From positions 1 to 64,000 of the forward strand of contig SUYU01000010.1 in the NCBI GenBank assembly GCA_015060245.1: a stretch of DNA of 64,000 nucleotides. The letters are read 5' to 3'. Every line of letters begins with the position of its first letter. The stretch's first letter is position 1. The notes beneath the pieces were generated by a model, which was not told the origin of the DNA, ran no database searches, and was given only the letters and a program-made list of their open reading frames with translations. Both the position numbers and the translations under genes were made by a program. This stretch comes from Bacteroidales bacterium. GTDB lineage: Bacteria; Bacteroidota; Bacteroidia; Bacteroidales; UBA932. Shown here in pieces: positions 21,095-37,656 of this stretch.

Positions 21095-21121
21095 TTTACA
21101 AAAGTGTAAAATTCCTTTACA
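21095..21121 (+). promoter_or_regulatory. Putative activator-binding site upstream of the TolC gene
   Basis: TTTACA (21095), four bases, TGTAAA (21105), five bases and TTTACA (21116) form an inverted repeat plus a third half-site 21 bp from the first. The same arrangement recurs at 26352 upstream of the ABC ATPase gene. In both places TGGCAC follows exactly 83 bp after the first half-site. The locus encodes a sigma-54 activator, so these are candidate enhancer sites for it; the link is inference. Confidence 0.6.
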
Positions 21122-21177
21122 CCACATACGCTCCAATAAAAATTATATCCAACTGAATTTCTGCGCATTAACATGTA

Positions 21178-21183
21178 TGGCAC
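21178..21183 (+). promoter_or_regulatory. Candidate sigma-54 -24 element of the TolC operon
   Basis: TGGCAC lies 58 bp before the TolC-gene ATG and 83 bp after the putative activator site. The -12 position reads GTGT instead of TTGC, so only the -24 half fits the sigma-54 consensus. Confidence 0.4.
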
Positions 21184-21235
21184 ACATAGTGTTCCAATTT
21201 GGTACAAACAGGAACAATAATGTTATATCCGCTTT

Positions 21236-22594
21236 ATGAAGATTTATTCAACTATAAAACCTATCTGCCTGGCACTTGCTCTTGGCTCTGTCATTTCATC
21301 TTATGGACAGGAGAGTTTCACTCTGAAAGAGTGCATGCAGTATGCAATTGAAAACTCTGCAAAGATGAAGATGCAGCAGATGGATATTGATGATGCCAGA
21401 ATTGCACGCAGGGATGCGGTAATGAATTTATTTACCCCACAGATCTCTGCAGGCACATACGCATATTCAAACTTTGGCCGATCAGTGGACCCGGAGACCA
21501 ATACCTACGTATCAACAACATCATTCAACAACGGTTATCAGATAGGTGGAGGAATTACCCTTTTTGACGGGTTCAATGCCGTAAACAATTATAAAATAAG
21601 CAAGACAGCCCTTAAGATGGGCATCAGCCGCGAGGAACTTACCCGAGATGAGATATGTCTGGCAACAATGGAAGCATTTTACAACGTTGTATATTTCCAA
21701 CAACTTGAAGAGATACTTGCTGCACAAATCCTGACAGCCAAGAATGCCCTCAGGCTTGCAAGCAAGCAGGAGGAACTCGGGCAGAAAGGTTACACCGACG
21801 TCATAGAGATGGAGGCTGAACTTGCCGACAGAATATATCAGATGACCAATGCCGGGAACAGGCACGCAGATGCTCTGCTTACTCTCAAAGATCTGATGTT
21901 CTGGCCTGTAAATGAAGAACTGGCAATAGACACAACCCTGCCAGATGCCTGCATAATTGACGCAATCACATCAGATGAGGAGAGAACAAATATCATAGAA
22001 AGCGCCTTGGAGAGCCATCCGTCAATTACCATTGCAAAAGGGGCCATGGATAATGCCATGCTCCACCTTAAGAGTGCCAAATGGAGATTTACACCGAGCC
22101 TTTCACTGAATGCAGGCTGGTCAACCAGTTACTATACCTATCCGGGAATGGACGGATATGTTCCGGCACCTTTCCACACACAGTTCAAAAACAATGGCGG
22201 CGAGTACATACAATTATCACTCTCCTTCCCGATTTTTGACCGTCTTTCAACATTCTCGAACCTCAGGAGAAAGAGAAATGAAAGCAGACGTGCCACAATA
22301 GAGTACGAACAGAAGGTCAGGGAGGTGAAGGCCGAAGTAATACGTGCCCTTCAGGATCGTGACGGCGCTGCCACTGCCCTCCATCAGGCAGAGCGCAGAG
22401 TGGCACTTCAGGAGGAGGCCTACCATCTGAACCTCAAGAAACTGGAGCAGGGGCTAATTTCTCCTATCGACTTCCAGAGGGTTTCTGACAACTGGCTCAA
22501 TGCAAAGACAGGCTGGTTGGATGCTCTCCTGAAGTTCTATATCAAACGCAGCGTGGTAAACTATTACAATGGCATAAGTTATATTGACCAATAA
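21236..22594 (+). CDS. TolC family outer-membrane efflux protein
   Basis: The 452-residue protein has a signal peptide (LALALGSVISSYGQ) and the TolC/OEP double repeat. FTLKECMQYAIENSAKMKM starts the first; long helices with EEILAAQILTAKNALRLASKQEELG follow, then the second repeat with SARWRF-like SAKWRFTPSLSLNAGW and REVKAEVIRALQDRDGAATALHQAE. It would form the trimeric outer-membrane and periplasmic tunnel of an exporter. It is the first gene of a plus-strand locus with an HlyD-type adaptor and FtsX-type ABC parts, so it is most likely their exit duct. Confidence 0.92.
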   Translation: MKIYSTIKPICLALALGSVISSYGQESFTLKECMQYAIENSAKMKMQQMDIDDARIARRDAVMNLFTPQISAGTYAYSNFGRSVDPETNTYVSTTSFNNGYQIGGGITLFDGFNAVNNYKISKTALKMGISREELTRDEICLATMEAFYNVVYFQQLEEILAAQILTAKNALRLASKQEELGQKGYTDVIEMEAELADRIYQMTNAGNRHADALLTLKDLMFWPVNEELAIDTTLPDACIIDAITSDEERTNIIESALESHPSITIAKGAMDNAMLHLKSAKWRFTPSLSLNAGWSTSYYTYPGMDGYVPAPFHTQFKNNGGEYIQLSLSFPIFDRLSTFSNLRRKRNESRRATIEYEQKVREVKAEVIRALQDRDGAATALHQAERRVALQEEAYHLNLKKLEQGLISPIDFQRVSDNWLNAKTGWLDALLKFYIKRSVVNYYNGISYIDQ

Positions 22595-22653
22595 CTTGAA
22601 AATGCCTGCTCCACACATCAGAAACAGAGTAGAAAAAGTAATATACAAAAACT

Positions 22654-23910
22654 ATGGACAAGATAATTGAAAAGAAAAAAGGAATTGCAGTGGCCTTTAC
22701 CAAAAAGGCTCTCCCATACTGGTTTGGAGCCTTTATGGCAGCACTCATTCTCTGGCTCGTGCTTCGTGACGATGCGAGCACACTCCGGGTTAACGGCGAA
22801 ACCCTCTCAATCAGCGAGGTACTCAGCGGAGAGTTCAACGACTATATCCGCATCAGCGGACAGGTACAGCCGATGACCACTATACAAATAAGTCCTCTGG
22901 AGGGCGGAATCGTTCAGGAAATCATCATTGAAGAGGGATCAAAGGTGAGTGTTGGCGATGAGATCATCCGTCTGAGCAACGACAATCTCGACCTGCAGAT
23001 CCTCAATTCCGAGGCGGAACTGGCCGAAAAGGAGAACCTTCTCCGCAATACTATGATCTCTATGGAACAGCAGAGGCTCAGCGTGCAGCAGGAGAAACTT
23101 CAACTCCAGGTTGAGGTAAAGAGGCTCAAGAGAAAGTATGAACAGAACAAGACCCTGTACCAGGAGAAGTTGATTGCCCGCGAAGAGTATCTGACCGCAC
23201 AGGAAGATTACGAACTTGCTGCCGGAAGACTTGAACTTGTGAAGGAGCGTGCCACTCAGGACAGTCTCTACAGAAGCGTGGAGATCCGTCAGATGCAGGA
23301 GAGCCTTGAGAATATGAGACTCAATATGCAGATGATACGGCGCAGGAAAGAGAATCTTACCATCAAGTCACCTATATGCGGTGAGTTGGGACTGCTGGAT
23401 GTGACACTCGGCCAGTCAATAGCAAGCGGGACCAAGATAGGCCAAATCAATGAACTTGGAAGTTACAAGATTGAGGCTCAGATTGACGAGCACTACATCG
23501 ACAGGGTAGCATCGGGTCTGACCGCTACATTTGAACGGCAGAACGACTCATACGATGCTGTAATAAGAAAAGTCTATCCTGAAGTACGCGACGGCAAGTT
23601 CAAGGCAGATTTCAAGTTCAGCGGAGAAGAGCCGGCCAATATCCGCACAGGACAGACCTACTATCTTAATCTGCAACTCGGCCAGCCGGAGAAGGCCATG
23701 CTGATTCCACGCGGCACATTCTACCAGAAGACCGGCGGCAAGTGGATATATGTGGTGGCACCCGAAGGAGGAAAGGCAGTAAAGCGTGAAATACGCATCG
23801 GCCGTCAGAATCCGCAATTCTATGAGGTTCTGGAGGGATTGGAAGCCGGAGAAAAAGTGATAACTTCGGGCTATGATAACTTTGGCGACAATGAAGTACT
23901 AGTATTCTGA
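22654..23910 (+). CDS. HlyD/MacA-type periplasmic adaptor
   Basis: The 418-residue protein has an N-terminal membrane anchor (YWFGAFMAALILWLVL), a lipoyl half (GGIVQEIIIEEGSKVSVGDE) and a long coiled coil near residues 110-220. The second lipoyl half is IKSPICGELGLLDVTLGQSIASGT. A beta-barrel and membrane-proximal domain ends with EGLEAGEKVITSGYDNFGDNE. This matches adaptors linking MacB-type ABC exporters to TolC. It lies 59 bp after the TolC gene and 101 bp before the first permease gene, consistent with one transcript. Confidence 0.92.
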   Translation: MDKIIEKKKGIAVAFTKKALPYWFGAFMAALILWLVLRDDASTLRVNGETLSISEVLSGEFNDYIRISGQVQPMTTIQISPLEGGIVQEIIIEEGSKVSVGDEIIRLSNDNLDLQILNSEAELAEKENLLRNTMISMEQQRLSVQQEKLQLQVEVKRLKRKYEQNKTLYQEKLIAREEYLTAQEDYELAAGRLELVKERATQDSLYRSVEIRQMQESLENMRLNMQMIRRRKENLTIKSPICGELGLLDVTLGQSIASGTKIGQINELGSYKIEAQIDEHYIDRVASGLTATFERQNDSYDAVIRKVYPEVRDGKFKADFKFSGEEPANIRTGQTYYLNLQLGQPEKAMLIPRGTFYQKTGGKWIYVVAPEGGKAVKREIRIGRQNPQFYEVLEGLEAGEKVITSGYDNFGDNEVLVF

Positions 23911-24011
23911 CACTTTTAAGAGAGATTCCGCACCGCAGGAAGAGTGGGAGATGCTTTGCTCGCTCACAACCTGCAACTGATTAAAACTATAACCGCAAAA
24001 GAAAACCTGAC

Positions 24012-26348
24012 ATGAAAATTAAAGAAACAATAATAAAGGCTTTGTCTCTCGGTACGGGAGTGGCCATAGGTCTGATTCTCATAGCAAAGGTATGCTTCGA
24101 GATGAGTTATGACACCTGTTATGCCGATTATGGCCAGATCTACCAGATTCGCACTATATACACCCAGCACGGCGAGGATGAGGACTACCCACAGATTTCA
24201 GGAGCCATTGCTCCAGGATTCAGGGAGCATGTACCTGGCGTGGAAGTGGCTACAAGATGGACATTCATCTTCAACAGCGACAAGTTCATTGACCAGCAGA
24301 AGAATGTGGTTACCGGAGAGTGCATAGTAGCAGACTCCTGCTTCTTTGATATTTTTGATACAGAGATCCTTTCTGGCAATCCAAAGGAGGCGTTCTCCAA
24401 AATTGCCGTGGCCATGGTATCCGAGTCCTTTGCCAAGAAACTTGGCGGAGTGTCAGAGGCTGTCGGCCAGATAATATATAATGAGGAGATGCCTAACTTC
24501 AAAGTTGAGATTGGCGGAGTATTCAAGGATTACCCATATCACAGTTCCATCAGGAATGATGTAGTGATCTCTATGGCAAGTCTTATCAAGGAGTCAACCG
24601 AAAACTGGTTTGGAAACGACCGTTACAGAGGATATGTAAGACTGGCTGAAGGTACTGATCCTAACCTGCTTGCACCGGCAATCAGACTCATGCAGGAGAA
24701 AAACTATCCGCCGGAGATAAAGCAGATGGCAGAGACTTCAGGATTTGACATTCATTTCTTCCTTGCCCCTCTGAAGGGTGAACACATCTCTTCTGCAAGA
24801 ATGAAGAACATGATGGTCATACTTACTATAGTAGCCATACTTCTTATCATGATTTCACTCCTGAACTATATCCTTATGTCGGTATCGGCATTGGTAAAGA
24901 GATCAAAGGAGATGGGAGTACGCAAGTGCTATGGAGCAGCCGGTGCAAACATCTACGGAATCATGTTCAAGGAGGCGGCAACTGATGTAGCGGCGGCATT
25001 GGCAGTGGTTGCGGCTATTGTGCTTTCACTTAAGAGTGTCATTGAGGATATAGTCGGGGTTCCTGCCGAGGCCCTTCTTGTAAAAGGAACATATATGACT
25101 GTCATAGGGGTCATACTGGCAGTATTCTTCATTGCGGCGCTTGTGCCGGGTTATCTCTATTCGAAGATTCCTGCCGGAGCAGCCATCAGAAACTACAAGG
25201 AGAACAGGAAGATCTGGAAACTGGGACTTCTGTTCATCCAGACCGGAATCTGTGCGCTTCTGCTCACATTGATGGGCGTAATCTCCGCACAATACAACAA
25301 AGCCGTGAATGACAAACCTGGATATGAATATGACAATCTTCTCTGGACAGTACTTACCGGAACCAACAGGAGTGCTCATCAGGGAATCATAAATGACCTT
25401 AAACTGCTTCCCGGAGTGGTTGACGTTCAGGTCTCATATTCGCTTCCTCTTGAATCGTCATCGGGAAACAATGTGTATATGCTTGACAACGGACAGGAAA
25501 ACCTCTTCAATATAGCCGACCAGTATTGTGGATCAGAAGGACTGTTTGAAATGCTTGAGATTCCATTCATTGAAGGCCGATATCCCCGCTCTCCCACAGA
25601 GATTGCTGTTAGCGAGAGTTTTGTGAAGAAGATGATGGAGTTCAGGGACTGGAGCGACGGTGCAGTAGGAAAGCAGGTATATATCACTGAACATGATGAA
25701 AAGATTGGTGCAGTAACTGTCAGCGGAGTGTATAAGGATTACCGCATAAATACATTGACAAATCAGGACATGCGTGCGAGCATAAAGTTTTATGGAGAGG
25801 TTGGCAAAGACCATATGCCGTTCATGGCCATAAAAGTGACAGAGGTTACGGCGGAGATGATGGCAAAGGTTGAAGAGGTGATCCAGGCAAGGATAGAGAA
25901 CAAGGATGTGGTCGTGAAGTCATACAAAGACTCTATGCGGGAGGCCTATTCAAGCGAAAGGAGGATGAGAAATACGGTCATCATAGGATGTCTGGTCTCA
26001 ATTATCATTGCCCTTTTCGGCCTCATCGGATATGTCCGCGACGAGTCGCAACGCAGAAGCAAGGAGATGGCTGTACGCAAGATCAACGGAGCAACCGTCA
26101 AGGAGATAATGGAAATATATGTGGTGGAAATCATGAAACTCGCCATTCCTGCAATAATTATGGGTAATGTGGGGGCATACTTTGCGGCATCGGCATGGCT
26201 CAGGAACTTCTCGGAGAAGATTGCACTTTCACCTTGGTTCTTCATCCTTGCGGATGTGGTTATAATCCTGCTGGTATCTGGTTGCGTGATACTCAACAGC
26301 CTGCAAATATCAAGGAGCAATCCGGTGGAATCACTTAAAAATGAATAG
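24012..26348 (+). CDS. FtsX-type ABC transporter permease 1
   Basis: This 778-residue permease has the double MacB_PCD-FtsX layout usual in Bacteroidetes: an N-terminal helix, a periplasmic domain, three helices around TIVAILLIMISLLNYILMSVSAL with KEMGVRKCYGAAG, a second half starting near FIQTGICALLLTLMGV, another periplasmic domain, and three final helices with SKEMAVRKINGATVKEI. The C-terminus, SNPVESLKNE, is shared in form with the three paralogues downstream. Such proteins couple ATP hydrolysis to movements of an adaptor/outer-membrane duct rather than moving substrate through the membrane. Its partner ATPase follows. Confidence 0.9.
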   Translation: MKIKETIIKALSLGTGVAIGLILIAKVCFEMSYDTCYADYGQIYQIRTIYTQHGEDEDYPQISGAIAPGFREHVPGVEVATRWTFIFNSDKFIDQQKNVVTGECIVADSCFFDIFDTEILSGNPKEAFSKIAVAMVSESFAKKLGGVSEAVGQIIYNEEMPNFKVEIGGVFKDYPYHSSIRNDVVISMASLIKESTENWFGNDRYRGYVRLAEGTDPNLLAPAIRLMQEKNYPPEIKQMAETSGFDIHFFLAPLKGEHISSARMKNMMVILTIVAILLIMISLLNYILMSVSALVKRSKEMGVRKCYGAAGANIYGIMFKEAATDVAAALAVVAAIVLSLKSVIEDIVGVPAEALLVKGTYMTVIGVILAVFFIAALVPGYLYSKIPAGAAIRNYKENRKIWKLGLLFIQTGICALLLTLMGVISAQYNKAVNDKPGYEYDNLLWTVLTGTNRSAHQGIINDLKLLPGVVDVQVSYSLPLESSSGNNVYMLDNGQENLFNIADQYCGSEGLFEMLEIPFIEGRYPRSPTEIAVSESFVKKMMEFRDWSDGAVGKQVYITEHDEKIGAVTVSGVYKDYRINTLTNQDMRASIKFYGEVGKDHMPFMAIKVTEVTAEMMAKVEEVIQARIENKDVVVKSYKDSMREAYSSERRMRNTVIIGCLVSIIIALFGLIGYVRDESQRRSKEMAVRKINGATVKEIMEIYVVEIMKLAIPAIIMGNVGAYFAASAWLRNFSEKIALSPWFFILADVVIILLVSGCVILNSLQISRSNPVESLKNE

Positions 26349-26351
26349 AGT

Positions 26352-26378
26352 TTTACAAAAGTGTAAAGAAATCTTACA
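26352..26378 (+). promoter_or_regulatory. Putative activator-binding site upstream of the ABC ATPase gene
   Basis: TTTACA (26352), AAAG, TGTAAA (26362), five bases and CTTACA (26373) repeat the arrangement seen before the TolC gene, including the 21-bp distance between first and third half-sites. TGGCAC begins 83 bp downstream at 26435. Confidence 0.6.
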
Positions 26379-26434
26379 GGTCCAAAATATGCACAAACAA
26401 CCAAACATCCTGTAAAACAAAAGATTAAATATCT

Positions 26435-26464
26435 TGGCACAATACTGATAGAGTATTGGCACAA
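26435..26464 (+). promoter_or_regulatory. Candidate sigma-54 -24 element and repeated TTGGCACAA
   Basis: TTGGCACAA occurs at 26434 and again at 26456, with the inverted pair AATACT/AGTATT between them. The first TGGCAC (26435) is 83 bp after the activator motif and 63 bp before the ATPase ATG. Neither copy has a consensus TTGC at -12. Confidence 0.4.
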
Positions 26465-26497
26465 CAACGGAATATTAACAATAAAAACTATAACAAA

Positions 26498-27178
26498 ATG
26501 ATTACAGTAACTAATCTCAGCAAGGTTTTCCGTACAGAGGAAATCGAGACAACAGCACTAAATCAGGTTTCATTCGAGATCAGGGAGGGCGAATTCGTGG
26601 CAATCATGGGCCCTTCGGGATGCGGCAAGTCTACCCTACTCAACATCCTCGGACTTCTTGACAATCCTACAGACGGCAGTTATATGCTTCTCGGCCAGGA
26701 GGTAGCAAAACTCAAGGAGAAGGACCGCACCAAGTTCCGCAAGGGCAACATAGGCTTTGTGTTCCAGAGTTTCAACCTTATTGATGAACTCAATGTGTAT
26801 GAGAATGTTGAACTTCCTCTACGCTATCTCAACATCAGTTCATCTGAGCGTAAGGCACGCGTAACAGAAATACTCAAGAGAATGAACATCAGCCACCGCG
26901 CACAGCACTTTCCACAGCAACTTTCCGGCGGTCAGCAGCAGCGCGTTGCCATTGCCCGTGCTGTTGTTTCAAACCCCAAACTGATCCTCGCCGATGAGCC
27001 CACAGGTAACCTCGACTCAAAGAATGGCAAGGAGGTTATGGACCTGCTTACAGAACTCAACAAAGAGGGCACTACAATAGTAATGGTGACCCACTCTCAG
27101 AAGGATGCATCTGTAGCCCAGAGGGTCGTGAACCTCTTTGACGGACAAATCGTAAGTGACGTAAAGAACGAACTTTAG
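26498..27178 (+). CDS. MacB/LolD-type ABC transporter ATP-binding protein
   Basis: The 226-residue nucleotide-binding protein has Walker [10 protein letters not shown] at residues 38-46, the Q-loop in GFVFQSFNL, the signature [14 protein letters not shown], Walker [10 protein letters not shown] and the switch histidine in MVTHSQ. It is of the MacB/LolD/FtsE class that pairs with FtsX-type permeases. It is the only ATPase among four permease genes, so it probably serves all of them. The open frame begins at a TTG at 26456, but the ATG at 26498 gives the normal [11 protein letters not shown] start. A separate promoter region precedes it. Confidence 0.95.
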
Positions 27179-27210
27179 CAGATTGTTCAACATAAATATT
27201 GGACTTTACA

Positions 27211-29616
27211 ATGGCATCATCAAACATATTCAGACGCGGCAACTCTGCTATCTCCGGCATACTCAATGTGCTGGGAATGGCGGTTGCTTTTGCTGCCTTC
27301 TATATCATTCTGGTTCAGGTAAACTATGATCTGAACTTCAACAAGGGCATCAATGATTCGGAGAAGGTCTTTATCCTTTCGGTAAATGCACAAGGAGAAG
27401 CAAAGTACAACTCGCTTTATTACTGCCGTCCACTTGCCGAAATGCTCATGCACTCCTCGCCCAACATTGAATTTGGAGGTATCATCAATCTGACCAACAC
27501 CGCAGATGAGAGTTTCTGGATCGAGAGGAATGGTGTAAAAGAGGTGCTGAGCATGAATCACACAGATATCAGCGGAACAGCCCTCAAGGCAGTAGGATTT
27601 GAAGCACTGGAAGGATCGCTTGATGATGTTGTAAACCGTAATACCTTGGCTATCAGCCAAAGTGCCGCAAACAGATTTGACCTTAAAGTTGGAATGAGTC
27701 TCGGTCAGGGAACCAATATGCGCACAATAGTTGCAATCTTCAAGGATATGCCTGACAACTCCCATTTCAAGGATCTGGATCTGTTGAGCAATATGGGTGA
27801 AAGGAGTCTTGAAAATTTCACAGAGTGGGGATTTACCCATTTTGTAAAATTGCACGATCAGTCTCAGGTAGAGGAGATGGAGAGAGAACTGGCAGAGGTC
27901 AGCCGCAAATATTACATGGAGAAGTTCTTTGGGAATATGCCTTCACCTGAAGAGATGGGAATGTCACAAGAAGAGTTTGACAAGAGGGTAAATGAAATGT
28001 TGAACATGGCTGTAGCCGACTTCATTCCTCTGGAAAGCCTCTATTACAACAATGCACAACTTGAAAGAGGAAACAGAACTGCCACAATGATACTTCTGAT
28101 TGTAGGTATCCTTATCATAGCCATTGCCTTCATCAACTACATCAACTTCTTCTTTGCACAGATTCCTGAACGTATCAGAAGTGTGAATACAAAGAAGGTG
28201 CTGGGCTGCACACGCCGTGAACTTATCATCAGCACAGTTGTAGAGAGTGTTGCTCTAATCCTCTTTGCCCTTGCTCTTGCATTTGCCTTTGTAATGCTCT
28301 TCAATATGAGCCAACTGACTCATCTTATAAGTGCGGAGAGCAGTTTGGGTGCAAACATCCCGGTGGCTATCCTTACTGTAGCCATTGCTACAATCATTTC
28401 GTTTGTATCAAGCCTCTATCCGGCATTCTATGTCACTTCATTTGAGCCGGCATTGGTGCTTAAGGGCTCTTTCAGCGGCACCAGAGCGGGCAAGAGACTA
28501 CGTTATATCCTTGTAGGACTTCAGTTTGTGATTTCCATTATTCTCATTGTCTGCTCAGGCTTCATCAACCTGCAGCGCGATTATATGGTCAATTTTGACA
28601 TGGGATTTGACAAGGAGCAACTTCTTTATGTCCGTACCACAAATTATATCGGATACAATGCCGAGGCGGTTGAAGAGAAGTTGAAAACCAACCCTCAGAT
28701 TGCTGATGTAACCTGGGCTGCCGGAGAGTTGATAGCAGAAGAGAGAATGGGCTGGGGCCGGGAATGGAATGCACAAAACATCAGTTTTGAGTGCTATCCG
28801 GTTGCATACGACTTCCCTGAATTCATGGGAATCGAGATTATAGAGGGCAGGACCTTCCTGCCACAAGACCACCAGAGCAAGAACGGTGTGTTCATCTTCA
28901 ACGATGCTGCACGCAAGGAGTTCGGATTCACTCTCGAAGATAAGATTGTAGGCCATGCTCACCTAACGGATATTGTTGGATTCTGTGAAGATTTCAGTTT
29001 CCAGTCTCTCAAATATCAGGTTAGTCCGCTCGCACTCTATATTTTTGGATCAGAACCTTGGTGGTATCCGTCAACGGCATTCATCAGAGTCTCTGCAGGT
29101 GCTGACTATCAGGCTGTAATGAAGCATATTGCAGGAGTTTTGAGCGAATGGGAATACAATATTTCGCCAGAAGAGTGGAATATCAAATTCTTTGACGACA
29201 ATATAAATGCCACTTACAAAAAAGAAAAGGCCCTTTCTGAACTGATCAGCCTCTTCACTCTGATTGCAATCATCATTTCGCTTATGGGAGTATTCGGTTT
29301 AGTGATGTTTGAGACACAGTACCGCCGCAGGGAAATTGCTCTTCGTAGGGTAAACGGAGCAACAGTCAACGAGATACTGGCAATGTTCTGCCGCAGATTT
29401 GTAAAGATTGTCCTCGCATGCTTCGCTGTTGCCGCTCCGCTGAGTTGGGTAATCGTAAAGAACTATCTCGCAACATTTGCACACAGATGCCCTCTATACT
29501 GGTGGGTATTCGCTCTTGCACTTGTGGCTGTACTTGCCATAACCATCGGTGTGGTTGTAATAAGAAGTTGGAAAGCCGCAACTGCAGATCCTGCCGGAGC
29601 ACTTAAAACTGAGTAG
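27211..29616 (+). CDS. FtsX-type ABC transporter permease 2
   Basis: This permease has 801 residues in the double FtsX layout. An N-terminal helix GILNVLGMAVAFAAFYIILVQV is followed by a periplasmic domain, a helix triplet with FINYINFFFAQIPERIRSVNTKKVLG, a second half starting RLRYILVGLQFVISIIL, and a last triplet with RRREIALRRVNGATVNEI. It ends SWKAATADPAGALKTE. It begins 32 bp after the ATPase stop codon and ends 10 bp before the next permease, which has nearly the same C-terminus, indicating tandem duplication. A TTG start at 27199 is possible; ATG 27211 is preferred. Confidence 0.9.
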   Translation: MASSNIFRRGNSAISGILNVLGMAVAFAAFYIILVQVNYDLNFNKGINDSEKVFILSVNAQGEAKYNSLYYCRPLAEMLMHSSPNIEFGGIINLTNTADESFWIERNGVKEVLSMNHTDISGTALKAVGFEALEGSLDDVVNRNTLAISQSAANRFDLKVGMSLGQGTNMRTIVAIFKDMPDNSHFKDLDLLSNMGERSLENFTEWGFTHFVKLHDQSQVEEMERELAEVSRKYYMEKFFGNMPSPEEMGMSQEEFDKRVNEMLNMAVADFIPLESLYYNNAQLERGNRTATMILLIVGILIIAIAFINYINFFFAQIPERIRSVNTKKVLGCTRRELIISTVVESVALILFALALAFAFVMLFNMSQLTHLISAESSLGANIPVAILTVAIATIISFVSSLYPAFYVTSFEPALVLKGSFSGTRAGKRLRYILVGLQFVISIILIVCSGFINLQRDYMVNFDMGFDKEQLLYVRTTNYIGYNAEAVEEKLKTNPQIADVTWAAGELIAEERMGWGREWNAQNISFECYPVAYDFPEFMGIEIIEGRTFLPQDHQSKNGVFIFNDAARKEFGFTLEDKIVGHAHLTDIVGFCEDFSFQSLKYQVSPLALYIFGSEPWWYPSTAFIRVSAGADYQAVMKHIAGVLSEWEYNISPEEWNIKFFDDNINATYKKEKALSELISLFTLIAIIISLMGVFGLVMFETQYRRREIALRRVNGATVNEILAMFCRRFVKIVLACFAVAAPLSWVIVKNYLATFAHRCPLYWWVFALALVAVLAITIGVVVIRSWKAATADPAGALKTE

Positions 29617-29626
29617 TAAAATAGCC

Positions 29627-32041
29627 ATGAATACACATTTGTCAAATTTCTGGATGACACTTCGTCGTTATAAAGCAGCGTCAGTGCTCAATGTAGTAGG
29701 ACTTACATTTTCCTTTGTTGCTTTCTACGTGATTGCATCTCAGGTGTGGTATACTCTTACATATAATGATTCTCTCAAAGATGCAGAGAATACGTATCTT
29801 ATTTCTCCCAATTTTGGAGATCCCAGCAATATAAGTTGGAGTACTAATTCTCCTGGGGCATTGGCATATGAGACAATGGATTTCTTTCCTGATGCTGAAG
29901 AAGTAGCCTCTATTGTCCCTTATCCTAAAATCAGTAGGATTTGGGTAAAAGAAAATGATTATCACTTTGAATCATTCAACGATTATGTATATCAAGCAAC
30001 CTCAAATACACCTGCTTTTTTTGGGTTCAAGTGTTTGGACGGAGATTTTTCTGAATTAAAGAATCCTAATACCGTCATTGTATCCCGCTCTATGGCTGAT
30101 AAGTTAGACGTTGGAGTAGGTGAAACTATATGGTTTGAAGGTGGGCAAAAATTTGATGACGGCAAGGCCACTTATCCGCAGACGGTTGTTGCAATATATG
30201 AGGATATGCAAAAAAACTGCATTTTTGGACATTGGGGCATAATACAAAATGATGAAGGCGTATTTTCTTCAGGCAACAATAACTGGAACTATAGCAACTA
30301 TGTCCGTTTCAGAGAAACTGCAGACTTGAATGGATATATTGAGATATTCAAGCAGCGTTATGCTGAATGGTATCTTGGCATGGTTCAGAAATGGGTTGCT
30401 GAAGATCCGGAGGAAGAGGAGTACCTAAAGGAGGAGATTGAGAATGGAGTACATCTTCTGGCCACCAGACTTGTGCGGGTTGACAAGATGTACTATACAG
30501 AGTTCCACAACTCCGGTAACTTTCAGACAGGGAAGAAGTCTACTCCAATCATTCTTTCAAGCATCGCTCTGATCATAGTTCTTATAGCCTTTATAAATTT
30601 CATAAACTTCTTCTTGGCACTCATACCTGTCAGGATGCGTTCTGTGAATATTTGCAAGGTGTTTGGTGCCAGTCAAAGAGCACTGAGATGGAGTTTTCTT
30701 TTTGAGGCTATAGGTCTGGTACTTATATCAATGGTGTTTACATTATTGCTGGTCATTGCGATTGAAAACAGTTTTATTACTGACTATTCTATTTGTTCCT
30801 TGGCTATAGGAAACAATATCCCGGTTATAATGATGATTATCTGTCTGATAGTGTTAATTGCTGTAGTAGCAACTTTATATCCTGCTTTCTACATCACTAA
30901 GTTTAATGCATCAATGGGTGTGAAGCGTGGTTTTGCACACTCGGCTGCAGGAAGAAGAATGAGATCCATTATAGTAGGTATCCAGTTTACCGTGGCTATA
31001 TTTCTTATTATCGTGACATCTGTCTTTTTCCTTCAGTATCGCTATATGGTCAATTATGATCTTGGATTTGATAAGGAGAACATAGTGACATTTGCTTCAT
31101 GGGACCTTGGCACTCGTTCTGAAACGGTGGTTGAAAGATTGAAGCAACACCCAGACGTTATGGATGTGACAACATCTCAGATGAACTTGCTCCATTGTAT
31201 TCAGAGATGGGGACGTACATATGGTGATAAGCAATATCATATAAGAGCAAATGGCGTCCGCTGGAATTTCCTTCAGTTCTTTGGGTTTGAGGTTGTTGAT
31301 GGCAATGGCTTTACTCAGTCTTCCAACAAGAGTAAGGATATGATTATGACACAACGTCTGCATAGGGATATAGGTATTCCTATTGGAAATGATGAGGGTG
31401 ATTTTACTTATGTAGGAATCATTAAAGATGTTCGTCTGCAGTCAATTGGTCAGTCTGAAGAGTATAATGCTTTCTACTGTGCTTCTGAGGCCGACAGAAT
31501 GAGCCATTTCTATGTAAAATTGCATAAGGGAGCCAATAATAAGGCATTTGCGGATTATGTTAAAGACGTTTCCAAGGAACTCGCACCTGCTGCAAGTAGA
31601 CCTGAGGTGAGATATATGGAGCAGATTGTAGAGGACCTTTATTCCCAGACTAAGAAGGACATGGTTTTGATTGGGCTATTTGCTGTACTTGCGATTGTTA
31701 TCACCTTGATGGGTGTATTTGGCGTGGTTATGTTTGAGACCCAGCACAAATATTCGGAGATTGCTGTTCGTAAAGTATACGGGGCAACTAGCAGGCAGTT
31801 GATTTCAATGTTGAATAGCCGATATGTATGGATAATCCTCTACTGCTTCTTTATTGCTGCCCCATTGGCCTGGTGGTTCAGTTCAAACTGGTTACAGCAG
31901 TTTGCAAATCGTATTTCCACACCATATTGGATCTATGCATTAGCATTATTTGCCGTTATGGCAGTAACAGTAGGTATTATAACATTGCGTTCATGGAAAG
32001 CAGCAACTGCTGATCCGGCCGAAGCATTGAAAACTGAATAG
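29627..32041 (+). CDS. FtsX-type ABC transporter permease 3 (AT-rich paralogue)
   Basis: The 804-residue permease has the same domain order as permease 2: FWMTLRRYKAASVLNVVGL, a helix triplet with FINFINFFLALIPVRMRSVNICKVFGAS, and a final SEIAVRKVYGATSRQL, ending SWKAATADPAEALKTE. Its DNA looks clearly richer in A and T at third codon positions than the flanking paralogues over most of its length, while its two ends resemble permease 2. This suggests recent replacement or acquisition of the central part by recombination. Ten bases separate it from permease 2. Confidence 0.9.
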   Translation: MNTHLSNFWMTLRRYKAASVLNVVGLTFSFVAFYVIASQVWYTLTYNDSLKDAENTYLISPNFGDPSNISWSTNSPGALAYETMDFFPDAEEVASIVPYPKISRIWVKENDYHFESFNDYVYQATSNTPAFFGFKCLDGDFSELKNPNTVIVSRSMADKLDVGVGETIWFEGGQKFDDGKATYPQTVVAIYEDMQKNCIFGHWGIIQNDEGVFSSGNNNWNYSNYVRFRETADLNGYIEIFKQRYAEWYLGMVQKWVAEDPEEEEYLKEEIENGVHLLATRLVRVDKMYYTEFHNSGNFQTGKKSTPIILSSIALIIVLIAFINFINFFLALIPVRMRSVNICKVFGASQRALRWSFLFEAIGLVLISMVFTLLLVIAIENSFITDYSICSLAIGNNIPVIMMIICLIVLIAVVATLYPAFYITKFNASMGVKRGFAHSAAGRRMRSIIVGIQFTVAIFLIIVTSVFFLQYRYMVNYDLGFDKENIVTFASWDLGTRSETVVERLKQHPDVMDVTTSQMNLLHCIQRWGRTYGDKQYHIRANGVRWNFLQFFGFEVVDGNGFTQSSNKSKDMIMTQRLHRDIGIPIGNDEGDFTYVGIIKDVRLQSIGQSEEYNAFYCASEADRMSHFYVKLHKGANNKAFADYVKDVSKELAPAASRPEVRYMEQIVEDLYSQTKKDMVLIGLFAVLAIVITLMGVFGVVMFETQHKYSEIAVRKVYGATSRQLISMLNSRYVWIILYCFFIAAPLAWWFSSNWLQQFANRISTPYWIYALALFAVMAVTVGIITLRSWKAATADPAEALKTE

Positions 32042-32173
32042 CGCATGATAGAGCAACACACAACTTCCTACCCTACAACATCTTACACCAAATACCTGCT
32101 GCACACACAGCAGACATCCAGTATAAAAAATATTAATAACCAAATACTTGAATACTACCTATAGAACAATAAA

Positions 32174-34597
32174 ATGAAAAGTTACCTGAGATTTTTGTCA
32201 AGAAACAAACTTTATACTGCAATCCAAGTCGTTGGATTGAGCCTGTCGCTCGCATTTGTCATAGTACTGGCAAGTTGGCTGGTCAATATTCTCAAAATGG
32301 GAAAGGAACATCCCCACTATGACAGGATATATGCCGTTGCATATCAGAATTCCCTCCACACCACTTGGGCATTGGGCGAGTATTTGTGCGACAATATTCC
32401 AGAGATTGAATCAACCTGTACTCCACTGCTTTATCCGGGACACTTCACACTCAACAATATTGACTGCGTAAAGATCAACTGGTGCGAAGAGAACTTCTTT
32501 GATTTCTTTCCGCAGGAGTTCATAGAAGGAGATGCCGGGTTCCTTAAGGTACCTTCAGAAGTGGGAATCTCGGAGAGTTTCGCCAATATTATATTTCCCG
32601 ACGGAGATGCCATAGGCAAAACTGTCACCCTCCTTGATAAGGAGTATACCATTACCGCTATATATAAAGATTTTGGGGAAGGTCTCATCAAATACAATGA
32701 CATGATTATGTCAATGTCCTCACGTGGTGAAAAGAATCCCTCATTGCCGAGACAGGAGATGCTCTCCGGTATAGTCACAATGGTCAAACTTAAAGAAGGC
32801 GCAGATGTTGGTGAGGCTGAAAAAAAGATAAAAGAGTTCACTCTCAGGCACTATAAGGAGACAGGAGATGATTTCATCAATAACACCGCCAAGACATCTG
32901 GAGAAAATGAATACACACAATATATCAGAAAGGCCATAGGCAACATACTTAAAGATGAAAGTTGCAGGCTTGTGAGATATGACCGGATAACATATGATGA
33001 AACCAATGAGTATTTCACAGTCAACACAAAGTTCACCATTCAGATAATCATCATACTTGTTGTGCTTCTGCTGATGATGTCACTGCTGAATTATGTCAAC
33101 CTCAACGTTGCCCTGGCCGGGAAAAGGGCAAAAGAGGCTGCGACAAAGAACCTTCTTGGATTCAGGAGGAGCGCAATATACTTCCAATTCATACGGGAGG
33201 CTTTTATGGTAACCCTTGTCTGCACAGTAATGGGAACATGTATAGCAATATCTGCACTTCCCGGCATCAACACTCTGCTTCAAGGCTACGATGGTCTCGG
33301 CAGCAAGTTCTGCATCTCATTTGAGCCGTTGACAATTGCAACCATTCTGGTCATTCTTTTGATGACCTCTGCACTGGCAGGAATCATACCGGCACATTAC
33401 GTCTCCCAATTCAGTGCATTGGACATTACCAAAGGCTCTTTCAGATTAAAGAGAAAGACCGTACTTAATAAGGCCTTTATCTGCGGACAGACTCTTTTGG
33501 CAACAGCCTTCATCACATTCAGCATCATCATTCAGATTGCATACAACAACATGATCAATATTGAAAGCGGGTGCAACCACGAAGACCTCTTCTACCTGCT
33601 CCCAAGCGACAGGCTGGAGCCTGAAAGGAACTGCTTCACCCATTATGATGCCCTACGGAACGAACTGCTCTCCCATCCTGAAATTGAAGCAGTTGAGTAT
33701 ACCAACAAGACAATATTCCGTTGTGATGTCTACCCTGTCCCATTGGATGAAAATGCAAACCAGTCGACTGATGTCTTTAACATATTCTGCACTCCTGAAG
33801 CATTTGAGACGTATGGGTTCAATATAAAAGAGAGGTACAGCGATGAGAAATATGGAATTTGGGTTACTGAATCTTTTAAATCTGTTATTGACAGGAGTCC
33901 CTACCTGCAACAATCATTCGGATATGATATTTTAGGAATCATCGGAGATTTCCCTATGCACGGCAATCCATCCTTCGTCGGTACCGACAACAAGCCGTCG
34001 GGTTTCATTGTAACAGATACTAAAAATGAGATAAACGATTATTACCTTGCCTATATCATCCGCACCAAAGGCGACCATGAAAAGGCCCGTCGGGTCATTG
34101 CTGAAGCATATGAAAAGATAAGCGGTTGCATAGTGGCAGATGCCAGACATATAGGCCGCGAATCAATGTATCTGACCGAAATGCTCAAACAGGATTTGCA
34201 GAAGATAGAATTCATAAAGAATGCGGTAACAGGTATCTCTGTAATAATTGTTCTTATTGCAGTTCTCGGACTTGTAGGAATAAGCACTTATTATGCAGAT
34301 GAAAACACTCATCAGACTGCTGTCAGGAAGGTATTTGGCGGCACAATTGCCTCAGAGACAAAACGCAACCTCTGGAATTTCCTCAAGATTGTGCTGATAG
34401 CAAATGTTGTGGCCGTACCCATTACAATATGGTTGGTTCTGAAGCAGAAATGGTTTGACCTGGCAAATATCCCGGGTTGGGGCTGGTACGCCGTACTTGC
34501 TACACTCCTCTCTTTTGCCATCTCCATCCTGGCTGTTTTGTGGCAAAGCCTCACCTCTGCCCGCACCAACCCGGCCGAAGCGCTTAAGAAAGAGTAA
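32174..34597 (+). CDS. FtsX-type ABC transporter permease 4
   Basis: This 807-residue permease diverges more from the other three. It has an N-terminal helix AIQVVGLSLSLAFVIVLASWL, a helix triplet with LLMMSLLNYVNLNVALAGKRAKEAATKNLLG, a second half at FICGQTLLATAFITFSIII, a final triplet with ENTHQTAVRKVFGGT, and the C-terminus NPAEALKKE. It is separated from permease 3 by 132 bp, which contain the inverted pair CTGCTG/CAGCAG and a CTTACA half-site. A terminator follows 49 bp after the stop, so this is probably the last gene of the export operon. Confidence 0.9.
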   Translation: MKSYLRFLSRNKLYTAIQVVGLSLSLAFVIVLASWLVNILKMGKEHPHYDRIYAVAYQNSLHTTWALGEYLCDNIPEIESTCTPLLYPGHFTLNNIDCVKINWCEENFFDFFPQEFIEGDAGFLKVPSEVGISESFANIIFPDGDAIGKTVTLLDKEYTITAIYKDFGEGLIKYNDMIMSMSSRGEKNPSLPRQEMLSGIVTMVKLKEGADVGEAEKKIKEFTLRHYKETGDDFINNTAKTSGENEYTQYIRKAIGNILKDESCRLVRYDRITYDETNEYFTVNTKFTIQIIIILVVLLLMMSLLNYVNLNVALAGKRAKEAATKNLLGFRRSAIYFQFIREAFMVTLVCTVMGTCIAISALPGINTLLQGYDGLGSKFCISFEPLTIATILVILLMTSALAGIIPAHYVSQFSALDITKGSFRLKRKTVLNKAFICGQTLLATAFITFSIIIQIAYNNMINIESGCNHEDLFYLLPSDRLEPERNCFTHYDALRNELLSHPEIEAVEYTNKTIFRCDVYPVPLDENANQSTDVFNIFCTPEAFETYGFNIKERYSDEKYGIWVTESFKSVIDRSPYLQQSFGYDILGIIGDFPMHGNPSFVGTDNKPSGFIVTDTKNEINDYYLAYIIRTKGDHEKARRVIAEAYEKISGCIVADARHIGRESMYLTEMLKQDLQKIEFIKNAVTGISVIIVLIAVLGLVGISTYYADENTHQTAVRKVFGGTIASETKRNLWNFLKIVLIANVVAVPITIWLVLKQKWFDLANIPGWGWYAVLATLLSFAISILAVLWQSLTSARTNPAEALKKE

Positions 34598-34645
34598 TGC
34601 CCGATATCAAACAAGAAGAGAGATTGAGAGCAAACTGGAAACACT

Positions 34646-34673
34646 AAGGCCGTAAGCATTCACTTACGGCCTT
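34646..34673 (+). terminator. Terminator of the ABC export operon
   Basis: AAGGCCGTAAG and CTTACGGCCTT form a perfect 11-bp stem with a six-base loop, followed by GTATAA. The T-run is short, but the position after the last permease gene fits. Confidence 0.7.
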
Positions 34674-34737
34674 GTATAACCAGACGGCTGCGGAGCTTGA
34701 TATAATCGTGCCTATATGCAACTCTCATCTTTCCCTG

Positions 34738-34764
34738 CAAATGTAGTTATTTAATCCCAATTAA
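34738..34764 (-). promoter_or_regulatory. Minus-strand promoter inside the operon's 3' gap
   Basis: On the minus strand TACATTTG (-7, 34738-34745) is preceded at 19 bp by TTG, matching the Bacteroidetes promoter pattern. It points back toward the export operon. Nine bases downstream an ATG at 34728 opens a 22-codon frame ending in the terminator loop. Confidence 0.4.
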
Positions 34765-34807
34765 CAAGCAATTATCCATTTTGTTTCCCGCACAATTACC
34801 GGGTATG

Positions 34808-34858
34808 AGCCTCACCTCTGCCCGCACCAACCCGGCCGAAGCGCTTAAGAAAGAGTAA
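34808..34858 (+). repeat. 51-bp exact copy of the permease 4 gene's 3' end
   Basis: Bases 34808-34858 repeat 34547-34597 without a mismatch: the last 16 codons and the stop codon of permease 4. The copy is 261 bp downstream and has no start of its own. It looks like the tail of a lost permease copy or the product of a local duplication. The remaining gap holds the terminator, the minus-strand promoter and an AT-rich stretch. Confidence 0.9.
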
Positions 34859-34925
34859 CCTGGTTTTGCCAAATTTTCATTGAAACTTATCTATTTTTTA
34901 GCACTTTTGCGTAAGATTTGGCAAA

Positions 34926-35087
34926 ATGAAAGGTTTTTTGGAAAAATCTCGGAGATACAGGAAAAATTTTGTAGATTCGTTTAATCAAGGAGAATATAAG
35001 CCTGAGGTTCTGTTTGATGACCATGAAATCGTTGAAAGGATCAAGGAGCATCCGATGGCTTTATGGAAGATGAATGAAGTTGAGTGA
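34926..35087 (+). CDS. 53-residue ORF directly upstream of the response regulator
   Basis: The frame encodes MKGFLEKSRRYRKNFVDSFN and continues with YKPEVLFDDHEIVERIKEHPMALWKM. It ends two bases before the ATG of the sigma-54 response regulator, so translation could be coupled. The second half resembles what I recall of C-termini in Bacteroidetes nucleotidyltransferase-like (AbiEii-type) proteins, so it could be a truncated remnant; this is a weak recollection. The ATG overlaps the right arm of an 11-bp inverted repeat (34864-34874 with 34916-34926), which could be a control site. Confidence 0.5.
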   Translation: MKGFLEKSRRYRKNFVDSFNQGEYKPEVLFDDHEIVERIKEHPMALWKMNEVE

Positions 35088-35089
35088 TT

Positions 35090-36439
35090 ATGGCAAAAAG
35101 CAGAGCAAAAATATTGGTTGTTGACGACAACAACGGCATAAGGGCGGCACTTAAGGTGCTGCTGCCGCTCCATTTTGCGCAGGTGGAACTGATTCCCTCT
35201 CCGAAGGAACTTATGTCCAAGATTGCAGACTTCCGTCCGGACGTGGTGCTGCTTGACATGAACTTTCATACCGACATCAATACCGGCAACGAGGGTCTTT
35301 ACTGGCTTTCACAGATCAAGAAGCGCACACCCGATATAGAGGTGATACTCTTTACAGCGTATGCCGACATCCAGTTGGCTGTTGAGGGGATGAAGCGCGG
35401 TGCATTTGACTTTATAGTAAAGCCTTGGGATAATGACAAACTTGTCGCCACACTCAGGGCCGCATACAACAGCAAAAACAAGGAGGCTGTCACAAATGTT
35501 GCAACCGTCTCCTCTCCAACAAAGATGTATTGGGGAAAAGGTGCAGCAATGAGCGGTATAAGGCAGACTGTAGAGAAGATTGCCCCAACCGATGCAACCG
35601 TACTGATTACAGGCGAAAACGGCACAGGAAAGGATGTGCTGGCTGGCGAAATTCACAGGATGTCTGAGAGATCTTTCAAGCCTATGGTATGTGTAGATGC
35701 AGGAGCAATCACCGAGACTCTTTTTGAAAGCGAACTCTTCGGCCACGTAAAGGGGGCATTTACCGATGCACATACAGACCATGTGGGCAAATTTGAGCAG
35801 GCCAACGGCGGCACCCTTTTCCTTGACGAGATTGGCAACATACCGCCTCATCTTCAGGCAAAACTTCTCCGCGCACTCCAGAACAGATGTATAACAAGGG
35901 TAGGCGACAGCAGGGAGATTCCTGTTGATATAAGGCTTATTTGTGCCACAAACAAAGATCTGAAGAGGATGGTCAACAACGGAACTTTCCGTCAGGACCT
36001 TTACTATAGGATCAATACTCTTGAACTTCATCTTCCCGCCTTGCGTGAAAGGAGTGATGAGATCATTCCTCTTGCAGAGATCTTTATGACAAAGTTTGCA
36101 GAGAAATACAGGCGCAAAGTAACCGCCCTCTCGGCAGATGCCGCGCAGTTGCTCAAGAGTCATTTATGGAGCGGCAACATACGCGAACTTTCAAACTGTA
36201 TTGAGAAGGCAGTAATTCTTTCTGATAGTGAAACACTCACTGCCGCAGACATTGAAATAGAGCAGACAAGGCCCGCCGGATCAATTGAAGTTTCAAGCAC
36301 CGACACTCTTGAAGAGACCGAAGAGAAGGCAATCCGTGCCGCTATGGCCCGTTTTGGAGGCAACCTCTCAATGGTAGCAAAGTCATTGGAAATAAGCAGA
36401 CCGACATTATATTCAAAACTGAAGAAATATAATATTTAG
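35090..36439 (+). CDS. Sigma-54-dependent response regulator (NtrC family)
   Basis: The protein has 449 residues in three domains. A receiver carries the phospho-acceptor Asp56 in VVLLDMNF and the conserved Lys in VKPWD. A central AAA+ domain has Walker A TGENGTGKD, the sigma-54 contact loop read as GAFTDA instead of GAFTGA, and Walker B GGTLFLDEIG. A C-terminal Fis-type helix-turn-helix ends LEISRPTLYSKLKKYNI. It should bind enhancer-like sites and activate RpoN promoters. The kinase gene follows after eight bases. The adjacent export operon with its repeated motif is the obvious target. ATG 35090 is chosen over GTG 35084. Confidence 0.93.
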   Translation: MAKSRAKILVVDDNNGIRAALKVLLPLHFAQVELIPSPKELMSKIADFRPDVVLLDMNFHTDINTGNEGLYWLSQIKKRTPDIEVILFTAYADIQLAVEGMKRGAFDFIVKPWDNDKLVATLRAAYNSKNKEAVTNVATVSSPTKMYWGKGAAMSGIRQTVEKIAPTDATVLITGENGTGKDVLAGEIHRMSERSFKPMVCVDAGAITETLFESELFGHVKGAFTDAHTDHVGKFEQANGGTLFLDEIGNIPPHLQAKLLRALQNRCITRVGDSREIPVDIRLICATNKDLKRMVNNGTFRQDLYYRINTLELHLPALRERSDEIIPLAEIFMTKFAEKYRRKVTALSADAAQLLKSHLWSGNIRELSNCIEKAVILSDSETLTAADIEIEQTRPAGSIEVSSTDTLEETEEKAIRAAMARFGGNLSMVAKSLEISRPTLYSKLKKYNI

Positions 36440-36447
36440 TCTGAAAT

Positions 36448-37656
36448 ATGAGCAACATGGCAATCATATCGCTTTTATTGACAGCAGTTGCCTTGTCAGC
36501 AACAGTCAGTTCCATGCTCACATCAAAAAAGATGAGACGCAAGGTCGCCTATATGCTGGATGCCCTTGAAGACAAGGAACTGAACTTCAGATTTGATGAA
36601 AGGCGATTAAGAGGCCGCAAGTTCAACCGCACCCTTAACCGTCTGCGCAACATTTTTGACAAGGAGAGACGCGAAATAATAGAGCAGGAGAAGTATTTTG
36701 GACTTCTGCTCGACCACGTAAAGACAGGAATCACTGTAATTGAGCCCGACGGCCGGGTCAATTACTGCAACAACACTGCACTGGTTCTGCTTGGGATTGC
36801 CACCTTGGGCCACATAAGGCAGTTACGTACAGTCAGCGAATCTCTCTACAATACGTTTCAAACCATTTCCGACACCAAAGAGGAGAGGGTAAGTTATTAC
36901 AATGAAAGCGGTAAAATAACAATCTCCATAACAGCATCGGCAGCAACAATAGGCAAGGCACAGGTCAAGGTCATAGCATTCAATGACATCAGTAACGAGA
37001 TTGCCGAGAATGAACAGCAGTCATGGACAAAACTCATAAGGGTCCTTACCCATGAGATTATGAACACCGTAACCCCAATTGCATCGCTAAGTGAAACCCT
37101 TCTGCGCTTTGATGGAATAAACGGGGAGATCAAGAGCGGACTGAACACCATTTCACAATCATCGAGAGGGCTCATCAAGTTTGTTGATTCATACAGGAAT
37201 CTTACAAAAGTGGCACCGCCTGTAAGGAAGGCATTCTACTTCAGGGAACTTGCAGAAAGAGTGATTGGACTTACAAAAGAGCAGACTTTAATCTGCGGTG
37301 CGGTATGTACCTACATTGAAAAGACAGATGACATTATCCTCTACGCAGATGAGGGACAGATAACACAGATTCTGATCAATCTGGTAAAGAATGCCATTCA
37401 GGCCGACGCCCGAAAAGTGGAAATCACTGCCGAGATAAACGTTTCGGAACATATCATCATAAATGTTATAAATGACGGCACACCTATAAGCAAAGAGAGT
37501 CAGGAAGAGATTTTTGTTCCATTCTTCACTACAAAACAAGAGGGAACCGGTATAGGGTTGAGCCTTTCACGTCAGATAATGCGTATGCACAACGGCACGC
37601 TCTCACTTACCCGAAGCGACAACAAGTGTACAATATTCACCATGATATTCAAATAA
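36448..37656 (+). CDS. Sensor histidine kinase
   Basis: This 402-residue kinase has one short N-terminal hydrophobic segment (AIISLLLTAVALSATVSSML), a linker helix, a PAS-like domain (GLLLDHVKTGITVIEPDGRVNYCN), a phospho-acceptor helix with His202 in VLTHEIMNTVTPI, and an ATPase domain with LVNLVKNAIQA (N box) and GTGIGLSLS (G box). Without a periplasmic sensor domain it probably senses an intracellular or membrane signal. It is encoded eight bases after its cognate response regulator and ends convergent with the AraC gene. Confidence 0.92.
   Translation: MSNMAIISLLLTAVALSATVSSMLTSKKMRRKVAYMLDALEDKELNFRFDERRLRGRKFNRTLNRLRNIFDKERREIIEQEKYFGLLLDHVKTGITVIEPDGRVNYCNNTALVLLGIATLGHIRQLRTVSESLYNTFQTISDTKEERVSYYNESGKITISITASAATIGKAQVKVIAFNDISNEIAENEQQSWTKLIRVLTHEIMNTVTPIASLSETLLRFDGINGEIKSGLNTISQSSRGLIKFVDSYRNLTKVAPPVRKAFYFRELAERVIGLTKEQTLICGAVCTYIEKTDDIILYADEGQITQILINLVKNAIQADARKVEITAEINVSEHIIINVINDGTPISKESQEEIFVPFFTTKQEGTGIGLSLSRQIMRMHNGTLSLTRSDNKCTIFTMIFK

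Follow-up and report, generated by a model that had tools for sequence, protein, structure and literature searches.

Two putative sigma-54 promoters with a conserved operator-to-promoter spacing in an ABC export locus of a Bacteroidales bacterium

Two intergenic regions in one ABC export locus of a Bacteroidales bacterium very probably act as sigma-54 promoters of a single two-component export regulon, each carrying a box that would be bent by an HU/IHF-family protein, and we put the probability of this reading at about 85%. It rests on the DNA elements and their fixed spacing, on their conservation, on the genes around them, on an rpoN gene and two HU-family genes in the same genome, and on a tie to the type of recognition helix in the regulator, all of which were computed. 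The window, which is the whole stretch of DNA analyzed here, comprises 64 kb of an assembly of 2.2 Mb that is 92% complete. Within the window, one plus-strand locus (21236-37656) encodes a TolC-like protein, an HlyD-type adaptor, a permease, an ABC ATPase, three further permeases, a regulator, and a kinase, as follows.

21236-22594, plus strand: TolC-like outer-membrane efflux protein (OEP; PF02321, 5.6e-48)
22654-23910, plus strand: HlyD-type periplasmic adaptor (PF13437, PF16576)
24012-26348, plus strand: MacB/FtsX-type permease A (PF02687, PF12704)
26498-27178, plus strand: ABC ATPase (PF00005)
27199-34597, plus strand: three more MacB/FtsX-type permeases (27199-29616, 29627-32041, 32174-34597)
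35084-36439, plus strand: NtrC-type response regulator with a receiver, a sigma-54 AAA+ domain, and a Fis-type helix-turn-helix carrying an SRPTLY helix (PF00072, PF00158, PF02954)
36448-37656, plus strand: histidine kinase, the proposed partner of the regulator (PF02518)

An earlier sequence-only reading had stated that the locus ends with a sigma-54 activator and a kinase, and the domain matches at 35084-36439 and 36448-37656 bear this out. Among named records, the closest regulator (96% identical) comes from a Bacteroidales bacterium from goat caecum. Between the last permease gene and the regulator gene, the window holds a remnant (34875-35080) whose frame ends in FVDSFNQGEYKPEVLF...MALWKMNEVE. 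The corresponding end in the locus L056 (15054-16004) is part of an AbiEii-type nucleotidyltransferase (PF08843, 3.3e-26), so a bacterial toxin-antitoxin or defence unit seems to have once stood here and to have since decayed.

The same reading had proposed that one motif with one spacer stands upstream of the TolC and ABC ATPase genes, and TTTACAAAAGTGTAAA (TTTACA-N4-TGTAAA, with AAAG as N4 in both copies) is indeed present at 21095-21110 and 26352-26367. The third half-site claimed 21 bp from the first was recovered as well, exactly at 21116 (TTTACA) and with one mismatch at 26373 (CTTACA). In each promoter TGGCAC, starting at 21178 and 26435, stands at precisely the stated 83 bp from the first half-site, and it lies 58 and 63 bp before the ATGs at 21236 and 26498, close to the 60 bp given. 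The exact TTTACA-N4-TGTAAA has two sites in the entire 2.2-Mb assembly, both at this locus, and allowing up to one mismatch gave 27 sites versus 11 for a backward control. TGGCAC occurs 31 times in the 64-kb window, both strands combined. Given that these are the sole two exact copies in the assembly and that TGGCAC is scarce in the window, the motif shared by the two promoters is not a product of chance. The suggested scan of relatives found the same arrangement in L055, whose regulator is 85% identical: TTTACA-N4-TGTAAA with TGGCA at +83 stands before its TolC and ATPase genes. A second TGGCAC at 26457 in the ATPase promoter was considered as the true -24 element and rejected, as it is absent from L055. 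The elements assigned to the two promoters are as follows.

21095-21100, plus strand: half-site 1 TTTACA, TolC promoter; putatively the right half of a second, degenerate operator some 21 bp upstream of the main one
21105-21121, plus strand: operator TGTAAAATTCCTTTACA (TGTAAA-N5-TTTACA dyad), TolC promoter, 73 bp before TGGCAC
21146-21170, plus strand: symmetric IHF-like box TATCCAACTGAATTTCTGCGCATTA, TolC promoter, centre 20 bp before TGGC
21178-21183, plus strand: -24 element TGGCAC, TolC promoter; profile score 30.6, the best in the window
21190-21193, plus strand: -12 element TGTT, TolC promoter, standard spacing; predicted start near 21204
26352-26357, plus strand: half-site 1 TTTACA, ATPase promoter
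26362-26378, plus strand: operator TGTAAAGAAATCTTACA (dyad with one mismatch), ATPase promoter, 73 bp before TGGCAC
26403-26427, plus strand: IHF-like box AAACATCCTGTAAAACAAAAGATTA, ATPase promoter; right half AAACAAAAGATTA
26435-26440, plus strand: -24 element TGGCAC, ATPase promoter; profile score 24.8, second best in the window
26446-26449, plus strand: -12-like TGAT, ATPase promoter, 1 bp closer than standard; predicted start near 26461

A search for regulator orthologues was positive in 61 of 118 relatives at E ≤ 1e-100 and in 187 of 398 genomes of the family at E ≤ 1e-110, and 40 regulator loci, taken from 54 listed matches among the 118 relatives, were fetched and their genes called. 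A looser scan of these fetched loci showed that the operator conserved in relatives is the 17-bp dyad TGTAAA-N5-TTTACA, formed by half-sites 2 and 3. The sequence-only reading had paired other half-sites: the pairing of half-sites 1 and 2 (TTTACA-N4-TGTAAA) was rejected, because half-site 1 varies among relatives, which keep TGTAAA-N5-TTTACA or, in L060, L062, and L063, a 16-bp form. Half-site 1 would fit a second, weaker operator that lies about 21 bp farther upstream. In L056, L057, L064, L066, and L067, full dyads occur as pairs 19-22 bp apart, and TTTACA-N4-TGTAAA is the junction of two such adjacent operators, which is complete in L057 (TGTAAGGTTCCTTTACA-GATG-TGTAAAGAAATCTTACA). In L059, L060, L062, and L063, a 16-bp dyad (TGTAAAGACCTTTACA or similar) stands before a TolC gene located downstream of the kinase gene, and L059 and L062 carry a further dyad shortly upstream of the regulator gene, which suggests that the regulator may control its own gene there. 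No operator is evident upstream of the regulator gene in the window.

The distance between operator and promoter is nearly constant. In relatives, TGGC[A/C] begins 71-73 bp after the first base of the dyad. When the 398 family genomes were searched for the dyad followed by TGGCA with gaps of 41-71 bp allowed, 75 of them gave a total of 111 matches, and 85 of the 111 have gaps of 54, 55, or 56 bp (10, 35, and 40 matches, respectively), that is, three adjacent spacings of the 31 allowed, one of the 85 (G364) being a TGGC within a regulator gene. The backward pattern gave 7 matches in the same genomes. A dyad-free promoter profile applied to 80 named loci yielded 43 promoter matches and none in reversed sequences, a set that is not independent because 10 of these loci include, letter for letter, a promoter used for training; many of the same genomes had supplied training promoters, and the window was excluded from them. 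Before the profile matches, dyads were found at 71 (7), 72 (19), 73 (8), 92-94 (16), and 120 bp (2), and among the 62 named regulator loci that span 11 kb or more, only 26 have the full module. With the window kept out of training, the TolC and ATPase promoters scored 30.6 and 24.8, and the best unrelated site in the window scored 7.9. From -55 to -33, between the dyad and the box, conservation is weak (0.02 to 0.36 bits), so that the geometry is preserved over drifting sequence. The proposal of an activator site and a -24 element at a fixed distance is therefore supported by a spacing held within 3 bp across the family, together with the encoded rpoN and the tie to helix type described below. 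A check for close relatives that had lost the motif but retained the regulator and exporter showed no such loss in G012 and G041, the genomes with the most similar regulators, both of which have the dyad and TGGCA at +73 before the TolC gene and before the ATPase gene.

For the downstream genes, 100 modules were fetched, 84 being gap 54-56 matches outside the window's own genome and 16 more selected by eye. The gene following the module is TolC in 48, a permease in 30, an ATPase in 12, a regulator in 1, and unclassified in 9, so that 90 of the 100 stand before TolC, ABC-ATPase, or MacB-permease genes, where the class is the best BLASTP match (E ≤ 1e-4) of the first frame against the window's proteins, some at only 18-20% identity. 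Since the fetch pattern demanded both the dyad and TGGC, these two are conserved by construction in the 100 modules; the -12 element, the box, C at +5, and the gene class are independent of the pattern. A third module in the window's own genome, before another MacB-type permease gene (G000:C5:598-675), indicates that the regulon extends beyond the window. In this locus (L209), the module is followed by an additional full operator, TGTAAAGAAACTTTACA, which lies past the predicted start and ahead of the permease ATG and might there block rather than activate. At the level of the order, the dyad module was matched in 28 of 295 genomes versus 4 for the backward control, many matches being chance-like by eye, and the module thins out beyond the family. 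One genome of the same order and another family (G649) has seven dyad-TGGCA matches, possibly an independent expansion of the regulon.

The promoter elements have the layout of sigma-54 promoters. The profile set went from 102 modules to 81 non-redundant promoters after those at least 80% alike had been collapsed (two are the window's; L156, with TGGC inside the regulator gene, was dropped). In these 81 promoters the -24 element reads TGGC-A(0.96)-C(0.84)-R, and the -12 element is T (0.70) then G (0.84) at +12/+13, with T (0.47) or C (0.37) next. G occupies the standard -12 position, which lay outside the search query, in 83 of 99 modules and in 47 of the 48 modules fetched before TolC genes. 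The sequence-only reading had named as its weak point that neither -12 position reads TTGC. At the TolC promoter this worry is answered, because GTGTT at the standard spacing fits the family's TG[C/T] and is an ordinary member of the 81 promoters; at the ATPase promoter it persists, as TGAT lies 1 bp short. Among the 12 modules fetched before ATPase genes, TG is 1 bp short in 6, at the standard position in 3, and at neither in 3. In several orthologous ATPase promoters TG likewise sits 1 bp nearer (TGGCACAATACTGAT), so the shift is inherited and not a local accident. A strict search of the window's own genome for TGGCAC-N5-TTGCW gave 2 exact and 83 one-mismatch matches versus 22 for the backward control, and the two window promoters were not among the matches. 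The host encodes RpoN (PF04552 at 1.9e-53), whose 475-residue frame contains the RpoN box as ARRTVAKYRE.

Between the operator and the promoter lies a fixed box that the sequence-only reading had overlooked. The box, YAA-N4-YTGA-N3-TCAR-N4-TTR, is a near-perfect palindrome centred 20 bp before TGGC, and its register to the -24 element is T/C-A-A at -32 to -30, Y-T-G-A at -25 to -22, T-C-A-R at -18 to -15, and T-T-R at -10 to -8. The IHF consensus is WATCAR-N4-TTR (scored here as WATCAA-N4-TTR) and is asymmetric in E. coli. The box contains this consensus once per strand about the centre at -20, both halves matching WATCAR-N4-TTR in register. At least 7 of the 9 IHF positions are matched at offset -20 on the plus strand in 46 of 81 promoters (shuffled spacers: mean 1.1, maximum 5), and for the mirrored half, at -32 on the opposite strand, the corresponding count is 32 of 81. 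In the window, the right half of the ATPase box matches 8 of 9 positions and that of the TolC box only 6, a weak match. The genome also encodes two HU-family proteins (G000:C34 and G000:C18).

The box also occurs apart from this operator. Across the genus, a search for the box and TGGCA with 2 mismatches returned 90 matches in 35 of 39 genomes versus 5 for the backward control, many of them coding-like by eye; the unsorted matches may include further sigma-54 promoters. Across the phylum, with 1 mismatch, there were 20 matches in 19 of 335 genomes versus 5 for the backward control, with G at -12 in 12 of the 20, including all 8 of those with C at +5; the -12 tally covers all 20, and 14 of them, selected by eye, were inspected more closely. 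Five of the phylum matches have different dyads at 72-85 bp, namely L340-L343 (same class, other families) and L348 (another class); those outside the window's order include TGTACGATAATCGTACA at 81 bp in L340, ATGTCCAGTTACGGACAT at 72 bp in L341, and TTACGAAATTTCGTAA at 72 bp in L342. We offer only tentatively, at somewhat less than even odds, that sigma-54 promoters of Bacteroidota share a rigid layout, with an HU/IHF-type box at -20 and interchangeable dyads about 72-85 bp upstream. If true, sigma-54 activation in this phylum would work as a fixed assembly rather than through a flexible enhancer loop.

The operator goes together with the recognition helix of the regulator. In the 40 loci, the module is present in 20 of 21 with the SRPTLY helix (the sole exception being L061) and in none of 19 with other helices (p = 3e-10, kinship ignored), a tally that counts 16-bp dyads and one-mismatch dyads. 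This association lends indirect support to binding of the dyad by the regulator, though helix and operator could co-occur by descent, because SRPTLY regulators are mostly the closest relatives. Two non-SRPTLY loci (L081 and L084) have a well-scoring promoter after a different dyad, whose half-sites look TGTCA-like by eye. Among the 398 family genomes, the regulator (E ≤ 1e-110) was found in 52 of the 61 genomes with a strict module and in 135 of the 337 without one (kinship ignored), which leaves 9 module genomes showing no regulator at this threshold and 135 regulator genomes without a strict module. The AAA+ loop of the window's regulator reads GAFTDA, not GAFTGA. The other 40 aligned regulators have GAFTDA, GSFTDA, GAYTDA, or GAFTHA, in which T and F/Y are kept, and the fifth loop position is D in all 41 save one (H) and never G. 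In four genomes of the same genus, a paralogous regulator (47% identical) contains one in-frame TAA (G006:C145:8469-9821, G009:C17:18247-19599, G024:C63:3350-4699, and G007:C16:6610-7956), either from decay of the gene or from an assembly error.

The box could have a different occupant within the same sigma-54 module: another dimeric DNA-binding protein, acting as a second regulator in an AND gate, in place of an HU/IHF-type bender. Its near-perfect symmetry speaks for such a protein, given the asymmetric IHF consensus of E. coli, yet each half matches WATCAR-N4-TTR in register, two HU-family genes are encoded, and boxes are found with other dyads outside the order; we therefore regard a second regulator as rather unlikely. 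Also against it, the loop that joins enhancer and promoter in sigma-54 systems often forms with the help of IHF (PMC7057263, which places the enhancers about 100-150 bp upstream). A reading that concerns only the second promoter holds that the TolC promoter is sigma-54 dependent, with the ATPase promoter weak or inactive and its downstream genes mainly read through from TolC. This would agree with the -12 G, which falls 1 bp short at the window's ATPase promoter as well as in 6 of the 12 fetched ATPase-gene modules, but the dyad, spacing, and -24 element of the ATPase promoter are kept in G012 and G041 and, besides these, in G368, G412, and G426, and its profile score is 24.8, which makes such read-through improbable in our judgment.

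Bacteroidota housekeeping promoters have -33 and -7 elements, the latter with the consensus TAnnTTTG. If transcription started from such a promoter, the dyad could be a repressor operator, as palindromes are typical of repressors too and the dyad lies directly before the regulator gene in some relatives (L059, and G364 in L156). However, TAnnTTTG follows in just 2 of the 81 promoters, at differing places, on which ground the -33/-7 promoter was rejected; conservation between +15 and +55 is nowhere above 0.36 bits, and the -24/-12 geometry, rpoN, and an AAA+ activator are all present. We hold repression from a housekeeping promoter to be very improbable. That two AT-rich intergenic regions resemble each other by chance deserves hardly any credence: short motifs do arise in AT-rich DNA, but there are only two exact copies in 2.2 Mb, the module is kept in 20 of 21 SRPTLY loci, the reversed controls gave 0 profile matches, and the clustering of gaps in the family genomes also contradicts it.

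Under the favored reading of two sigma-54 promoters with a bent box, the kinase (36448-37656) would phosphorylate the NtrC-type regulator (35084-36439), whose Fis-type helix-turn-helix would bind the 17-bp dyad TGTAAA-N5-TTTACA, assisted by the weaker dyad about 21 bp, or two helical turns, upstream. A dimeric HU/IHF-family protein on the box centred 20 bp before TGGC would bend the DNA, and the bend would set the AAA+ ring of the regulator against RNA polymerase-sigma-54 parked on TGGCAC/TG[C/T]. ATP hydrolysis would then open the promoter, and the TolC-HlyD-permease and ATPase-permease transcripts would rise together. We infer binding by this particular regulator, bending by HU/IHF, use of sigma-54, phosphorylation, and the direction of control (activation).

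Known sigma-54 systems of the NtrC/NifA type with IHF include the glnA, nifH, and Pu promoters, and textbook enhancers tolerate varied distances. The system described here resembles them in its proposed two-component AAA+ activator, its tandem upstream dyads of about 17 bp, and its rpoN. It differs in an operator-to-promoter distance held at 71-73 bp across the family, in a two-fold symmetric box in fixed register, and in the operator sequence and target genes. A further likeness would be the putative IHF-type site between enhancer and -24/-12 promoter (for the role of IHF, PMC7057263). Our searches of open-licence papers turned up no report of this operator, box, or rigid spacing, nor of any operator or IHF site in Bacteroidota sigma-54 promoters. 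Sigma-54 control of such permeases in Bacteroidia has already been predicted: PMC12316311, in the sections relied on here, predicts it for COG0577 ABC permeases and calls the link new, and it shares with our case the kind of permease, the sigma factor, and the bacterial class. That study scored -24/-12 sequences and, in those sections, assigns to these genes neither an operator nor an activator nor a bending site; the term IHF is absent from its main text. In Flavobacterium psychrophilum, of the same phylum, sigma-54 promoters (motif SM4) have been mapped by 5'-end sequencing (PMC9723704), and the likeness to our case lies in the -24/-12 promoters, which in that species have experimental support, and in envelope-related genes; its genes are others, and the sections used here give no operator or spacing rule. 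With our results, the sigma-54 control predicted for MacB-type export in gut Bacteroidales becomes a concrete proposed regulon, one that has an operator, a candidate activator, and a searchable spacing rule; the results also suggest a candidate sigma-54 promoter layout for the phylum and a case of rigid rather than flexible enhancer geometry. Set beside these systems, the regulon would belong to a familiar kind, in which an NtrC-type protein activates sigma-54 promoters, and it would stand out by the unusual rigidity of its layout and by a symmetric, putative bending box.
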